33,694 nt of DNA from NCBI GenBank assembly GCA_025924315.1, contig JAICIO010000058.1, positions 1-33,694 of the forward strand. Reading direction: 5' to 3'. A program made the translations under genes and the position numbers. The DNA is from Phycisphaerae bacterium. Its GTDB lineage: Bacteria > Planctomycetota > Phycisphaerae > Tepidisphaerales > Tepidisphaeraceae. Positions within the stretch are counted from its first letter, which is position 1; each line of letters opens with the position of its first letter. The notes beneath the pieces are model-generated. The model was not told the origin of the DNA. It was given only the letters and a program-made list of their open reading frames with translations, and did no database searches. Below are positions 8,167 through 33,694 of the stretch, piece by piece.

Positions 8167-8182
8167 TCCGGAAACCGAGAGT

Positions 8183-8262
8183 CTTGTAGGGTCCGCTTCA
8201 GCGGACCGGTTATTATTCTTTTCGAACGGAAGTAACCGGTCCGCTGAAGCGGACCCTACAAG
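8183..8262. repeat. Perfect 30-bp inverted repeat, each arm itself palindromic
   Basis: Arms 8183-8212 and 8233-8262 are perfect reverse complements over 30 bases around a 20-base loop. Each arm contains the hairpin GGTCCGCTTCAGCGGACC. The same design recurs at 14175-14252 and 17958-18036 with GGTGCGC in place of GGTCCGC, so the stem varies while complementarity is kept. It lies 4 bases after the stop of the S1-domain gene and upstream of toroid/DUF4159-like copy B. Confidence 0.92.
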
Positions 8263-8266
8263 AAAT

Positions 8267-13723: not shown

Positions 13724-13791
13724 GTAGCACGGGCAACTTGCCCGTGCCTCCGCTCTTCCAAACGAAGGCACGGGCTGGTAGCCCGTGCTAC
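13724..13791. repeat. Paired palindrome (GCACGGGC...GCCCGTGC type)
   Basis: Outer arms 13724-13749 and 13766-13791 share GTAGCACGGGC and its complement. Each arm folds on itself (GCACGGGCAA-C-TTGCCCGTGC; GCACGGGCT-GGT-AGCCCGTGC). It ends 5 bases from the cupin stop codon and precedes hisA. Confidence 0.88.
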
Positions 13792-14159: not shown

Positions 14160-14174
14160 AATGGTCGGTCTTTC

Positions 14175-14252
14175 TTGTACGGTGCGCTTCAGCGCACCCG
14201 TTATTATTCGCCTCTCGAATGAATAACCGGTGCGCTGAAGCGCACCCTACAA
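14175..14252. repeat. Inverted repeat of the GGTGCGCTTCAGCGCACC family
   Basis: Arms 14175-14205 and 14222-14252 match over 31 bases with two mismatches, around a 16-base loop. Each arm holds GGTGCGCTTCAGCGCACC. Same family as 8183-8262 and 17958-18036. It ends one base from the dihydrouridine synthase stop codon. Confidence 0.9.
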
Positions 14253-17957: not shown

Positions 17958-18036
17958 CTTGTAGGGTGCGCTTCAGCGCACCGGTTATTCGCTTTTCGTG
18001 CGGAGAAAACCCGTGCGCTGAAGCGCACCCTACGAG
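17958..18036. repeat. Inverted repeat of the GGTGCGCTTCAGCGCACC family
   Basis: Arms 17958-17986 and 18008-18036 match at 27 of 29 positions and each contains the GTGCGCTTCAGCGCAC hairpin. The right arm contains the TAG stop and the last residues of the YcaQ-like gene, so here the repeat itself ends a reading frame. It lies between two genes that end towards each other. Confidence 0.9.
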
Positions 18037-19130
18037 AGGCCAAGGAAGACGCGAATGCCATCGAGCTCCGATTCGAGTTCGCGCTTGAACGCGCGATCGC
18101 GGGGTGGAGACCCAACGAAGCCAATGTCCGGCATAAGCTCGCCGTCGGACACCGAGAGATTGCCCCAACCGATCACTCGATCTCGCCATAGGAGCGGCAG
18201 CGCGTAATAACCGCGCACGCGCTTCGCCGCAGGCGTGTACGCTTCGAAACGATATTCCCAGCCCCACAGCATCTCGAACCGCCGGCGGTCCCAGACGACC
18301 GGATCGAACGGGGCGAGCAGGCGCACGGAATCGCCAGGATCATCGCCCGGAACTTTCCATTCGCTCGGCCAATACCAGTCGATGCCATTCACGCGCGCCT
18401 GCGAGAGCCGTTCTTTCGCGCGCGATAGCGCCGCCGGAATCTCACGCTCCCATTGCGGCACACCATAGCGCACGCGGCGAACGACGTACGAAAGGCTCAG
18501 CGCCGGCAGCGGCGCGTAGATTCGCACCGCCACATCGACAAGCTGGTCGACGCGCGCCTTTCGCTCCGCCGGATCCATCGGCCCCGCATCGTGCTCGTGC
18601 GCACTATACAACCTGATGCCCGCCTCGCGCCGCACGACGCGCAGCAATCCGCGGTAATGCATCGCGTCGAGGAGCTGCGTCGTCGCATTCGACGATCCGC
18701 CCCAGTAATTCCGCACGCTCCCGTGCGCAAAATGCTGGTCGACCTCCCGCGGATGAACGACACCGCGCTCGCGAACGAACGCGAGCAGGTCGTGCGCCTT
18801 CTTTCGCCGCGCCTTCGGCCAGGTACGCGTGACATCCTCCGCGGGCACACGCGAATTCGATCGCGGATGCATCAGCGCCTGTACCTCGCGCGTCACGAAA
18901 CCGTAGTTGATGAAGAAATCCTCGTGAACGTCCAGCGACGCGTACTTCCGATCGAGGTCCCCCGCGCGATAGTTCTTCACGCGATGGCGGAGGATGAGAT
19001 CCTGCGCCCGCGCCGGCGCGCGAATCGGATCCGCCTGCACGAAGCCGAATCGCTGCAACGCACGCTTGAGCGTCGTCGGCGGAAACAAACTGTTCGCGAC
19101 GGCCATTCGTCGCAGCTCATCCAATCGCAT
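18030..19130 (-). CDS. YcaQ/AlkZ-like DNA glycosylase (HTH_42 family)
   Basis: A 366-residue protein of the winged-helix YcaQ/AlkZ family, which unhooks interstrand cross-links and removes bulky alkylated bases. The family's catalytic motif Q-x-Q/D is present as VQAD (Gln32, Asp34), followed by IRAPARAQDLILRHRV. Typical later segments include FFINYGFVTREVQALMHPR, RLLAPFDPVVWDRRRFEMLWGWEYRFEAYTP and the C-terminal beta-barrel GYYALPLLWRDRVIGWGNLSV. The QxD form matches the YcaQ/AlkX subgroup. The ATG at 19130 is chosen because the frame upstream of it lies in a CACGAATCG repeat. The last residues and stop fall inside a palindromic repeat, so the natural C-terminus may have been trimmed. Confidence 0.87.
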   Translation of the reverse strand: MRLDELRRMAVANSLFPPTTLKRALQRFGFVQADPIRAPARAQDLILRHRVKNYRAGDLDRKYASLDVHEDFFINYGFVTREVQALMHPRSNSRVPAEDVTRTWPKARRKKAHDLLAFVRERGVVHPREVDQHFAHGSVRNYWGGSSNATTQLLDAMHYRGLLRVVRREAGIRLYSAHEHDAGPMDPAERKARVDQLVDVAVRIYAPLPALSLSYVVRRVRYGVPQWEREIPAALSRAKERLSQARVNGIDWYWPSEWKVPGDDPGDSVRLLAPFDPVVWDRRRFEMLWGWEYRFEAYTPAAKRVRGYYALPLLWRDRVIGWGNLSVSDGELMPDIGFVGSPPRDRAFKRELESELDGIRVFLGLS

Positions 19131-26113: not shown

Positions 26114-26164
26114 GCTGGACAATTGTACGGTTTTTGTTAGGATCAAGACAGAGGGAGTTTTTGG

Positions 26165-26262
26165 GGAGAGGATGGAGGTTGGAGGATAGAGGATGGAGGA
26201 TGGCGAAATGCGGTGACGCGATTGTCTATTCTCGATCCTCTATCTTCTCTTTGCGCGAGCTG
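26165..26262. repeat. GAGGATGGAGGATGG / ATCCTCTATCTTCTC inverted repeat
   Basis: A purine-rich left part (GAGGATGGAGG words) faces TCGATCCTCTATCTTCTC. A second copy is at 26914-26980. It fills most of the gap between the HTH gene and the downstream end of the membrane-protein gene. Confidence 0.65.
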
Positions 26263-26332: not shown

Positions 26333-26869
26333 TCACCGCTTCTTGTTCTCGTCGGGCTTCTGCGTGCTCCGGCGCGTCGTTAGGAACACGACCGCGTCCC
26401 AAGCGTTGTGGATCGCCGTGAGGAGCAGGAGCAGCGAGACGAAGGCGATGAGGAAGGATGCCGCGCGCGGGCGGAAGAGAAGGAGGATGCTGCTGATCAG
26501 GAGCGCGCCGTAGGCGATCGCGGGGAGCCAGAGGTGAGTGAGCCAGTCCTCGAAGACGGGCTTGTAGGTCTTCTGCGCGCGGATCGTGCGGTTGATGCTT
26601 GCCATCAGCGCGAGGCCGACGAGGGCGGCGATGGCGAGGCAGATGGCCGGGCTGATCAGCGTGTTCCAGGGCATGCTGAGGATGGCGGCGATGATGAGGA
26701 CGGCGCAGAAGTGGATGACGGTGGGCGTCCCGAAGGCGGATTGGGCGTCGGGCTTCATGATCTCGCCAGCGCGCTCGGCGCCGACGGTGATCACGACGAA
26801 CTGCAGGCCCGTGAGCGCGGCCGCGGACGAGCCAACGATCACGTAGAAACTTTCCCAGTCGGGGAACAT
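26333..26869 (-). CDS. Hypothetical multi-pass membrane protein
   Basis: A 178-residue protein with about five hydrophobic segments: residues 8-28 (FYVIVGSSAAALTGLQFVVI), 50-65, 72-90, 112-132 and 136-156. A short charged tail follows (RRSTQKPDENKKR). No enzyme motif is visible. The opening phrase WESFYVIVGSSAAALTGLQFVVI is reminiscent of small conserved bacterial membrane proteins without a known role. It is bracketed by two purine-rich repeats and has no clear operon partner. Confidence 0.75.
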   Translation of the reverse strand: MFPDWESFYVIVGSSAAALTGLQFVVITVGAERAGEIMKPDAQSAFGTPTVIHFCAVLIIAAILSMPWNTLISPAICLAIAALVGLALMASINRTIRAQKTYKPVFEDWLTHLWLPAIAYGALLISSILLLFRPRAASFLIAFVSLLLLLTAIHNAWDAVVFLTTRRSTQKPDENKKR

Positions 26870-26879
26870 GGGGGGGAAT

Positions 26880-26980
26880 TATGAAGGATGAAGGGTGAAT
26901 TATGAAGTGAATTCGAGGATGGAAGATGGAGGATGGCGGAGGCCATTCTCTAGTCTCGATCCTCTATTCTCTCTTCACGT
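26880..26980. repeat. Second GGATGAA / GAGGATGGAGG repeat block
   Basis: ATGAAGGATGAAGGGTGAATTATG is followed by GAGGATGGAAGATGG and the inverted TCGATCCTCTATTCTCTC. It combines the types seen at 24326 and 26165, and it overlaps the 3' end of the next gene, supplying the REERIEDRD tail. Confidence 0.6.
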
Positions 26981-31275: not shown

Positions 31276-31330
31276 GCTCCGATCAGTGGATCATCGCACG
31301 CAATTCGCGGCGCGACAAGGGAATTTTTCA

Positions 31331-31664
31331 GCCGCAGATACACGCAGATGAACGCAGATAAGCAAAAGATTTCTTTAACCACGAATGAACACGAATCTTC
31401 ACGAATCAATTCTCAATTCTCCATTCATGTCCATTCGTGTTCATTCGTGGTTACTCCTCTTTTTCTGTTTTATCTGCGTGTATCTGCGTTCATCTGCGAT
31501 TTCAGCCGCAAGTACACGCAGAAACGCAGATACGCAAAAGATTTCTTTAACCACGAATGAACACGAATCTTCACGAATCAATTCTCACTTCTTCGTTCGT
31601 GTCCATTCGTGGTTACTCCTCCTTTTTGTTTTATCTGCGTGTATCTGCGTTCATCTGCGGTTTC
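31331..31664. repeat. Tandem pair of long nested hairpin repeats
   Basis: Two near-copies (31331-31500 and 31504-31664) lie in tandem and fill the 421-base gap between divergent genes. Each has outer arms of GCAGATACACGCAGATGAACG-like words and inner arms of CCACGAATGAACACGAATC-like words, with a shared TTTCTTTAACCACGAATG segment. No gene is visible here; promoters for the kinase and CbiX genes must lie at the flanks or inside. Confidence 0.88.
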
Positions 31665-31696
31665 AGTTTCTGTTTTGAAGAGACTAGAATGGAGCT

Positions 31697-32137
31697 ATGC
31701 GTCACGGCATCATCATCGTCGATCACGGTTCGCGGCTGGAGCCGAGCAATCAAATGCTTGAAGAGGTCGCGAAGCTGTTCGCGAAGCGATTCGCGGAGAT
31801 GCACGAGGTCGTCGAGCCGGCGCATATGGAAATCGCCGAGCCGTCGATCGCGACGGCATACGCGAAATGCGCCCAGCGCGGCGCGCAGCGCATCATCGTT
31901 TGCCCATTTTTCCTCGGCCCGGGAAAACATTGGACCGGCGATATCCCGCGACTCACCGCAGAAGCCGCGGCGAAGTTTCCTGAGACGAGTTATCACGTAA
32001 CGATGCCGCTGGGGATTGACGATCTGATCTTGGATCTGCTCAACAAGCGCGCGAACTTCTGCATCGACAAGGATTTCACCTGCGAAAGCTGCCGTGGCAC
32101 GCTGCGCAGTGGTGAAAAGACCGCGGCCCTTTCGTAG
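31697..32137 (+). CDS. cbiX: CbiX-like sirohydrochlorin chelatase
   Basis: A 146-residue single-domain chelatase of the CbiX/SirB class, which inserts Co or Fe into sirohydrochlorin for cobalamin or sirohaem. Visible features: GIIIVDHGSRLEPSNQML with the metal His10, VEPAHMEIAEPSIATA, and RIIVCPFFLGPGKHWTGDIPRL with its His. After the usual domain end (about residue 115) there is an extra tail with CxxC (NFCIDKDFTCESCRGTLRSG) that may bind a metal or Fe-S cluster. GGAG lies just before the ATG. No other tetrapyrrole gene is adjacent. Confidence 0.88.
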   Translation: MRHGIIIVDHGSRLEPSNQMLEEVAKLFAKRFAEMHEVVEPAHMEIAEPSIATAYAKCAQRGAQRIIVCPFFLGPGKHWTGDIPRLTAEAAAKFPETSYHVTMPLGIDDLILDLLNKRANFCIDKDFTCESCRGTLRSGEKTAALS

Positions 32138-32158
32138 CACGGGTTTTCAAACGGTGCG

Positions 32159-32186
32159 TTGTCACTAATTGCACAAGGCGTACATA
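32159..32186 (+). promoter_or_regulatory. Predicted S41 protease promoter
   Basis: TTGTCA (32159-32164) and TACATA (32181-32186), spacing 16. It argues against a start at the TTG at 32159 and supports the ATG at 32216, which has GGAGG at 32207-32211. Confidence 0.5.
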
Positions 32187-32215
32187 TACCTTCAGACCCA
32201 ATTGCTGGAGGCGCG

Positions 32216-33613
32216 ATGCTGCGTGTCTGTCATTCTGAGCGAAGCGAAGAATCTCGATATCCAATACGTGTCTCCATTTGGAGATCCTTCGCTGCGCTCA
32301 GGATGACATTCATCACTCTGGCTTTGGTCACAGCGAATCGCGCCTTCGCCGCCCCACCTCAGGTCGTCATCTCTTCCCCCGACAACGGCGAGATCGACGT
32401 CGCGCCGGACGTGAAGGAAATCAAAATCGAGTTCGATCAGCCAATGAACCCCGGCGGGCGCTCGATCGTTGGCGGCGGGGATTCGTTTCCGAAAATCTCG
32501 GGCGATCCGAAGTGGACGGATGAGAAGACGTTCGTCATTCCGGTAGAGCTTGAACCGAATCACGCGTATCACCTCAGCATCAACAGCGATACGTTCAGAG
32601 GCTTCCAGAACCGCGGCGGAGACTCGGCCGAGTGGTATCCGATCGATTTCAAAACTCGCGCCGAGGGCAGCCAGCCCGCCAAGCCGGATGTGACGCTGGA
32701 GCAGAACAAAGCGGCGCTCAAGGCGCTGACGGATGCGATCGACAACGACTACGCCTATCGCGATCGGAAGAAGATCGATTGGGCGAAGGAGATCGCAAAG
32801 CGCAAGGAGCAGTTCGAGAACGCGAAGAGTGCCAATGAATTCGCGCGGCTCACGGCGCATCTTTTACGATTGGCGGAGGACGCGCACGTCTTCGTCAAGG
32901 CGGGCGACGTGACGATCGGCACGCGGGCGAACTCGTCCTCTCCGAATTTCAACTTCGCGGTGCTGCAGCAGCGCGTGCCGAAATGGACCGAAGGCGCCGG
33001 CGGAATCATTACCGGCAAATTCGAAGACGGCATCGGCTACATCCTTTTCTCCGACTGCAGTCGCGAGCAGGCCGATGCGTTCGACAAGGCGCTGGACGAA
33101 CTGAAAGACACGAAAGCCCTCATCATCGACGCACGCATGAACGGCGGAGGCGATGAAGACGCAGCCCAGCGCGTCGCGGGAAGATTCGTGGAAAAACCAG
33201 CGGTGTATTCGAAGGATCGAATTCGCGAAAATGGCAAATGGACGGCCCCGCTTGATCGCACAGTGGAGGTGCGAAAAGACGCAGGGCGCTATGCGAAGCC
33301 GGTCGCGGTCTTGATCGGCCCAAAGATCGCGAGCAGCGCCGAGTCTTTCGTCGCGATGATGAAGTACGGCGCGAAAGCCAAGCTCATCGGCGAGCCGACG
33401 AAAGGTTCATCCGGCCGGCCGATGCCTCACGATTTAGGGAACGCGGTGACGGTGTACCTGTCGAGTTGGGAAGATCAGCTGCCGGATGGCACACCGATCG
33501 AAGGCCGCGGAATCAAGCCGGATATTCTGATCAAAGTGAAACCGGTTGATCTGCAGCGCCGCGATGCGGTGCTGGAGACGGCTCTGATGTTTCACAGATC
33601 GCAGAGCAAGTGA
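32216..33613 (+). CDS. Secreted S41-family peptidase with Ig-like domain
   Basis: A 465-residue exported protein. A repeat-derived N-terminus (CHSERSEESRYPIRVSIWRS, FAALRMT) precedes a hydrophobic signal segment TFITLALVTANRAFAA. An Ig-like domain follows (about 48-145, PDNGEIDVAPDVKEIKIEFDQPM), then an S41 core: the helical cap (about 160-225), GIGYILFSDCSREQ, ALIIDARMNGGG and the nucleophile region GPKIASSAESFVAMM with GEPTKGSSGRP. S41 enzymes are Ser/Lys proteases of tail-specific or tricorn type. No PDZ domain was seen. ATG 32216 has GGAGG at 32207; an ATG at 32303 inside the repeat is the alternative and would give a tidier signal peptide. Confidence 0.85.
   Translation: MLRVCHSERSEESRYPIRVSIWRSFAALRMTFITLALVTANRAFAAPPQVVISSPDNGEIDVAPDVKEIKIEFDQPMNPGGRSIVGGGDSFPKISGDPKWTDEKTFVIPVELEPNHAYHLSINSDTFRGFQNRGGDSAEWYPIDFKTRAEGSQPAKPDVTLEQNKAALKALTDAIDNDYAYRDRKKIDWAKEIAKRKEQFENAKSANEFARLTAHLLRLAEDAHVFVKAGDVTIGTRANSSSPNFNFAVLQQRVPKWTEGAGGIITGKFEDGIGYILFSDCSREQADAFDKALDELKDTKALIIDARMNGGGDEDAAQRVAGRFVEKPAVYSKDRIRENGKWTAPLDRTVEVRKDAGRYAKPVAVLIGPKIASSAESFVAMMKYGAKAKLIGEPTKGSSGRPMPHDLGNAVTVYLSSWEDQLPDGTPIEGRGIKPDILIKVKPVDLQRRDAVLETALMFHRSQSK
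32228..32308. repeat. TGTCATTCTGAGCGAAG...CTTCGC...CAGGATGACA inverted repeat in coding 5' end
   Basis: Arms 32228-32255 and 32281-32308 form an imperfect inverted repeat of a widely dispersed bacterial intergenic type, translated as the familiar CHSERSEES...FAALRMT string. Here it lies between a good ribosome-binding site with ATG and the signal peptide of the S41 gene, and keeps the frame open. Confidence 0.85.
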
Positions 33614-33620
33614 AGGCATA

Positions 33621-33648
33621 TTTAGCGGCGGAGCGAAGCTCCGCGGGG
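33621..33648. repeat. Single-hairpin copy of the GCGGAGC-GAA-GCTCCGC family
   Basis: TTTAGCGGCGGAGCGAAGCTCCGCGGG matches, with few changes, the reverse complement of the left half of the repeat at 5838-5900. It starts seven bases after the S41 stop codon. The last 40 bases of the window are otherwise featureless apart from C runs. Confidence 0.75.
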
Positions 33649-33694
33649 TACTAGTGGCGCGAAAGAACCCCCGGTGCGTCGCTCCCCCCCGAAC

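Follow-up and report, generated by a model that had tools for sequence, protein, structure and literature searches.

The S41 peptidase gene and the element at its start

The window, that is the whole stretch of 33,694 nucleotides analysed here, is contig C58 of a 6.57-Mb genome of a Phycisphaerae bacterium that is divided into 262 contigs. An S41 peptidase gene lies at its right end and stops at positions 33611-33613. The features of the locus are as follows.

32207-32211, plus strand: Shine-Dalgarno-like GGAGG of the S41 peptidase gene (read from the sequence; GGAGGT precedes the ATG of the closest relative, L010/L079)
32216-33613, plus strand: S41 peptidase gene, 465 codons plus stop; 438 codons without the element
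32216-32218, plus strand: ATG, most probably the native start codon and still in use (same frame as the signal peptide; matching start in relatives)
32216-32227, plus strand: MLRV, remnant of the native n-region (sequence compared with and without the element)
32228-32308, plus strand: palindromic element, 81 nt, 27 codons, CHSERSEESRYPIRVSIWRSFAALRMT (65 arm pairs, match bounds and fold)
32228-32255, plus strand: left arm of the palindrome (fold)
32281-32308, plus strand: right arm of the palindrome (fold)
32303-32305, plus strand: terminal in-frame ATG of the element, the rival start (sequence)
32309-32350, plus strand: hydrophobic core and cleavage region of the signal peptide, FITLALVTANRAFA (sequence and relatives)
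32351-32590, plus strand: Big_5 Ig-like domain (Pfam PF13205, residues 46-125, 6.2e-5, just above the cut-off)
33032-33529, plus strand: Peptidase_S41 domain (Pfam PF03572, residues 273-438, 2.4e-27, 96 bits against a cut-off of 24)

The gene encodes a signal peptide followed by Big_5 and Peptidase_S41. The original prediction had placed an inverted repeat in the N-terminus of an S41 protease; the repeat is present with sharper bounds, 32228-32308, and PF03572 confirms the S41 assignment. The strong GGAGG that it described ahead of the ATG is also found. The signal peptide was said to come only after the repeat, and this agrees with inspection and with the relatives: FITLALVTANRAFA, followed by APP, stands directly after the element and consists of the short hydrophobic core FITLALV and a cleavage-type end, AFA/A (the slash marks the putative cleavage point). 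With the element removed, MLR, VFITLALV and AFA/A make up the basic n-region, the core and the AxA-type site of a Sec signal peptide. The promoter that had been predicted was not recovered: a sigma-70 type promoter and terminator scan of 31650-32500 found neither, and for such an organism the promoter scan says little. Rfam gave only sub-threshold chance matches to miRNAs on 31300-33694 and none on the element.

The element lies after codon 4 of the gene and immediately before the signal-peptide core, with no gap. CHSERSEESRYPIRVSIWRSFAALRMT is the phase-0 reading of a near-perfect palindrome and is continuous with the frame from the ATG at 32216. Folded alone as RNA, the element reaches -41.2 kcal/mol (z -7.1, 200 shuffles), and the hairpin starts 12 nt past the first base of the start codon. 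A hairpin of this strength at this place could mean that the insertion is damage, lowering expression or export in a gene that is being lost. We consider this very improbable, because the 434-codon frame downstream of the element is open and strongly coding by score, and long open frames are also found in the other genes with the same arrangement (5 of the 14 located frames extend past the stretch read). The Shine-Dalgarno sequence was predicted to be paired both with the element present and in the joined empty site, so the RNA accessibility of the native start cannot be used as evidence.

The comparison of the upstream sequence with repeat-free relatives, proposed with the original prediction, was informative. 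The closest relative is G020, a Phycisphaerae MAG that is 67-69% identical. The genomes searched include none of the same genus, so there is no true empty allele among them. Among the S41-related loci in named genomes, 77 were found and the N-termini of 40 were examined. None of the 40 holds the repeat arm, and in 32 an ATG stands at an ordinary signal-peptide distance, 14-36 residues ahead of the second P of PPxVV, which served as a conserved anchor. In the remaining eight, the nearest listed ATG is too close or farther away, or the start is GTG or TTG. The distance from ATG to anchor in the window gene is 47 residues, and 20 with the element removed. The gene of G020 starts with GGAGGT..ATG and MSLRCIALALASLSLAV, compared with MLRV/FITLALV in the window gene, where the slash marks the element; put another way, the relative begins MSLRCIALALA and the window protein without the repeat MLRVFITLALV. 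These data are read most simply if the element went in frame between the native n-region and the core and left the original start in place. The claim that a repeat has rewired a gene start thus appears overstated, since the start codon seems to be preserved.

The element family

A 19-nt arm pattern matched the genome 137 + 140 = 277 times, and the reversed-pattern control gave 0 matches. Elsewhere there were 0-13 matches per genome: 9 of 119 other genomes were positive, with a maximum of 13. The expansion therefore looks particular to the lineage of this Phycisphaerae bacterium. The core span was 63 nt in 55 of 65 arm pairs, giving the 81-nt unit (first 353 kb, a count that includes the biased loci L215-L234). 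Among 79 pairs in a 1.79-Mb sample, 57 had a span of 63, nine of 62, four of 64 and nine other values. The phase-0 frame was free of stops in 132 of 152 element-strands.

Most copies terminate in GTCAT...ATGAC, and the end of the element is GTCATYCTGAGCG. A subset of copies, such as C6:110862, has on one side a longer and different outer end, ..AAAAATCACAGACTCTGAGCG, whose pattern matched the genome 39 times with up to two mismatches. It may mark where a larger parent element terminates.

The family has the features of MITE-like elements: at 81 nt it is short, with 277 matches it has many copies, it has terminal inverted repeats, and it forms a stable hairpin (z -7.1). Target-site duplication showed no convincing excess in 24 tests on 73 copies, with four end positions and lengths of 1-6 nt; the largest excesses were 2 against 0.3 expected and 3 against 1.3 expected. 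For this reason we label the element MITE-like and not MITE. No insertion target motif beyond weak base preferences was found in 122 flanks, no arm occurred in the loci of the 10 genome hits to the Y1_Tnp family, the transposase family searched, and neither a GTAG nor a CGTC tag stands beside the palindrome. The best explanation is that the family is a non-autonomous, MITE-like element that multiplied in this lineage; we regard this, jointly with the account of the insertions given below, as probable.

Recurrence in signal peptides

Recurrence was examined in a sample of 76 arm pairs from loci L156-L214 and contig pieces C27-C64, to which the window belongs. Loci L156-L214 comprise every element among the arm matches listed (C1 to C26), and the 75 pairs outside the window were selected without regard to signal peptides. 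One-arm copies (31 of 110) and pairs with a span outside 55-72 (3 of 79) were dropped before counting. Loci L215-L234 were chosen from protein hits and are biased; they enter the 65-pair count and provide five of the 15 picked fusions described below. Coding calls were made with a simple hexamer model and signal-peptide cores were judged by hydrophobicity, on part of the genome.

A copy passed the fusion test when a start codon stood up to 12 codons upstream in frame, the element was open, a hydrophobic core began 0-3 residues after it, and the sequence was coding on the right side and not on the left. This was the case for 8 of 76 copies, or 7 of 75 without the window, whereas the random-site pass rate of 0.0041 gives 0.31 expected (P 3e-8). 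An ATG-only version was passed by 6 of 75 (P 4e-8), since L213 has just a TTG. In a more cautious control, 2.6% of random sites without an in-frame internal label qualified, so that 1.9 of 74 would be expected, and 7 were observed (P 0.003). Measured against the whole genome, the enrichment is about 23-fold, and against sites outside genes it is only about 3.7-fold, which indicates that much of it is plain tolerance. A hydrophobic core followed in seven of nine in-frame N-terminal insertions other than the window, compared with 9% of random N-terminal sites (P 2e-6).

The 76 copies include eight N-terminal fusions with a hydrophobic core and a single in-frame internal insertion (L201), whereas 53% of random sites lie inside genes; copies that break genes out of frame fall outside this internal count. 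In seven further copies, the coding frame ends within the element, and 60 of the 76 have no in-frame gene on the right side. L201 (C16:1-3200, minus strand) is a 78-nt copy placed within an extended coding frame, and a hydrophobic, helix-like stretch follows it immediately.

We also picked 15 fusions by hand for a hydrophobic core after the element and an open frame through it, leaving out L171, L180 and L187 (other starts or no core), L201 (internal) and L216 (a membrane protein). Of the 15, 12 have an upstream ATG within 12 codons that shares the frame of the core; the other two frames have one in 2 of 15 and 0 of 15 (12/15 against 2/30, P 1e-6). Without the window and the five protein-hit cases, the same test gave 6/9 against 1/18 (P 0.002). 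Two later fusions, C65:25918 and C32:51590 (loci L252 and L351), stand outside the 15-fusion count and bring the genes with an upstream ATG to fourteen.

The original prediction offered two readings, in which the repeat either landed right behind the start codon, to be read as a long n-region, or now supplies the start itself. The relatives and the ATG frames favour the first. The second, in which translation would be initiated from the terminal ATG of the element (32303), the element would be a 5' leader plus start codon and the upstream frame would be incidental, is unlikely for this gene. In most fusions, the hydrophobic core shares the frame of the ATG in AGG-ATG-AC, with which the element ends, and a Shine-Dalgarno sequence is not always required in Planctomycetes. 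On the other hand, the inner ATG lies within the base of the stem, AGG touches it directly, and the resulting MTFITLALV would have no Lys or Arg ahead of the core. The native n-region and GGAGG are preserved in the window gene, and the excess of in-frame upstream ATGs argues in the same direction. The frame of L174 exits the element through ..RFAQDDR and lacks the terminal ATG, so an upstream start is needed. In C61:3101(-), which precedes a DUF1570 protein (gene L308:8657-9787), a stop closes the frame just before the element, and the start must therefore be inside the element, in the first arm or at its end. Together with L213, which has only TTG upstream, this case means that the genome may use both kinds of start. 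The first arm of the C61 copy reads GTCATG, a possible start that would give MLSEAKHL...FAALRMTFLVACLIGG.

We therefore return to the start at 32216. The element would have entered the S41 gene after codon 4, between MLRV and the hydrophobic core. Initiation would stay at the native ATG, and the ribosome would read through the hairpin. The precursor would carry a signal peptide of about 45 residues rather than about 18, in which the Arg of the ..LRMT end of the element adjoins the hydrophobic core. The extra residues would stay in the cytoplasm and depart with the signal peptide, so that signal peptidase would remove the whole extension and leave the mature enzyme unchanged. As the unit is a palindrome of 81 nt with a mostly stop-free phase 0, the protein would gain 27 mostly basic or polar residues and keep its frame. 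The length is a multiple of three and phase 0 is mostly open on both strands, so either orientation would give a similar Arg-rich 27-residue peptide with a FAALRMT-like end. A repeat that is divisible by three, mostly open on both strands, basic, and placed in the part of exported proteins that is cut off could enter a gene without harm, and the start of an exported protein would be one of the few such places in a gene. Insertions likely survive only where they are harmless, and this would be the cause of the recurrence. In-frame insertion, translation from the ATG at 32216, a long signal peptide that is cleaved, and recurrence through tolerance together form the account that we hold to be probable. 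The sequence itself establishes the family, the bounds and in-frame place of the element, the open gene downstream, the relatives that lack it and the recurrence, and from these we infer initiation at 32216, export, cleavage and the cause of the recurrence.

The proteins that carry the element look exported. In a Pfam scan of 14 carriers (12 fusions or near cases, L216 and C61, with the two late fusions outside the scan), seven had matches above the cut-off, one had a match below it only and six had none. The families found were glutaminase A, GH2, GH5 cellulase, DUF2961, sialidase-like, peptidase MA with TPRs, and DUF1570. The arm was found in none of 11 loci of relatives of the glutaminase and DUF2961 carriers. 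A plain signal peptide stands behind the ATG in eight of the 11 (L328, L330-L335 and L338); L329 has no signal peptide at its sole ATG, no ATG was seen in L336, and L339 starts with a different palindrome, described below. The same fusion was also sought in other Planctomycetota with a fusion profile, with up to 17 candidates scored per genome. Weak matches occurred in 10 of 391 genomes, the best at 1.6e-9, and of two such loci inspected (L373 and L389) neither was a signal-peptide fusion. Since the fusions themselves were the source of the profile, its highest-ranking matches are circular and were not counted; 150 of 758 candidates were scored there.

Tolerance accounts for the recurrence better than for the exact position. 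The core starts 0-2 residues after the element, and in 10 of 12 peptides a native Lys or Arg is left upstream. Extending the allowed core distance to six residues added only L182 (at 4) and L187 (with its own later Met). The element thus stands almost exactly where the n-region meets the core, a placing that would not be expected if it were tolerated at any point of the n-region. Selection by itself is enough to explain that fusions recur, but it does not account for this near-constant position. The position would fit a preference of the element itself for the border, e.g. for a target sequence or for exposed single strand near gene starts. However, the 122 flanks gave weak base preferences and no target motif, target-site duplication is not convincing, and 60 of the 76 copies lack an in-frame gene to the right; we find such a preference quite improbable.

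A further idea is that the palindrome is a shared n-region module of the secretome, with the HPERSEGS...FAALRMT prefix and a common hairpin, and that n-regions are a safe harbour for coding palindromes. It is rather improbable, but if true, the shared prefix and the mRNA hairpin after the start codon could tie translation or export of many enzymes together. The protein start at L339 (a DUF2961 relative in G010, another genus) is one case that fits n-regions tolerating coding palindromes. There, an unrelated palindrome of the ATGGAGGATGG type, at about 1386-1500 of the locus, makes the n-region; the protein starts MEDGGWKMAK...SSIFHPPSSFSLSLPFVLF, and the palindrome folds at -51.9 kcal/mol (a value without shuffle control).

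Relation to known elements, and other repeats

Rickettsia palindromic elements (RPEs) are described in PMC2229807 and PMC10969869 as palindromic mobile elements of about 100-150 bp with an open frame, which stand in frame in many unrelated genes of one lineage. The 81-nt element resembles them in its stop-free frame and its in-frame fusions with protein genes. It differs in host and unit length, and whereas RPEs are described in many kinds of genes, its in-frame genic copies in our sample lie almost only in signal-peptide n-regions. The element thus appears to work like an RPE, by analogy, and we do not file it as a member. Table 1 of PMC2229807 enters a question mark for target-site duplication of RPE, CIR and RU-3.

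Yersinia RU-2 / YPAL works in a similar way, and a signal peptide made partly by this repeat was published in 2007 for the gene YPO1552. That case concerns one gene and a repeat with many hydrophobic residues; in the present genome fourteen genes are concerned, and the element gives a basic peptide before the hydrophobic core. REPINs and the GTAG/CGTC REPs with RAYT transposases are, according to PMC3116915 and PMC3733652, many-copy hairpins of inverted pairs that act as mobile DNA. Our family is likewise a many-copy hairpin of inverted pairs, but its ends lack GTAG or CGTC, and the absence of arms from the 10 Y1_Tnp loci gives no sign of a RAYT link.

In the collection of papers searched, the arm strings and peptide motifs tried led to a single publication, which to judge by its title is unrelated, and a search on palindromic elements or MITEs with signal peptides found the 2007 Yersinia precedent. 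Autotransporters have extended signal peptides, in which a long extra N-terminal stretch precedes an otherwise normal Sec signal. These belong to one protein class, whereas the extension here is a mobile repeat. Coding palindromes are already known, and the element is a lineage-specific one that recurs in signal-peptide n-regions. What seems to be new is that many signal peptides of a single genome have received such an element at the same point. If real, the fusions form a natural collection of signal peptides that are longer by 27 nearly identical residues, which would be useful for asking what length and structure of the n-region can be tolerated. Gene callers may place such starts at the upstream ATG or inside the repeat.

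Other repeats were seen beside the 81-nt element. In L182 (C7:32143-36220, minus strand), the 14-nt arms of a second inverted repeat, of the AGCCAGGAGCCAGA type, flank the element on either side, and one of these arms codes for the hydrophobic stretch LLAPGFWLLASF. The window contains GGATGGAGG repeats similar to the L339 palindrome at 26158-26205 and 26861-26938. A GTAG-tagged palindrome, GTAGCACGGGC...GCCCGTGCTAC, lies at 13724-13791; its core matches 33 times in 1.79 Mb, and a half copy stands at 32134-32143, at the end of the CbiX gene. Upstream of the CbiX gene, at 31326-31666, a stretch built of CGCAGATGAACGCAGAT and ACCACGAATGAACACGAAT repeats is directly duplicated with a period of about 172 bp. 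A different hairpin, formed by TTGTAGGGTGCGCTTCAGCGCACCGGTTATT with its complement, occurs three times in the window, at 8182-8263, 14173-14252 and 17958-18037.
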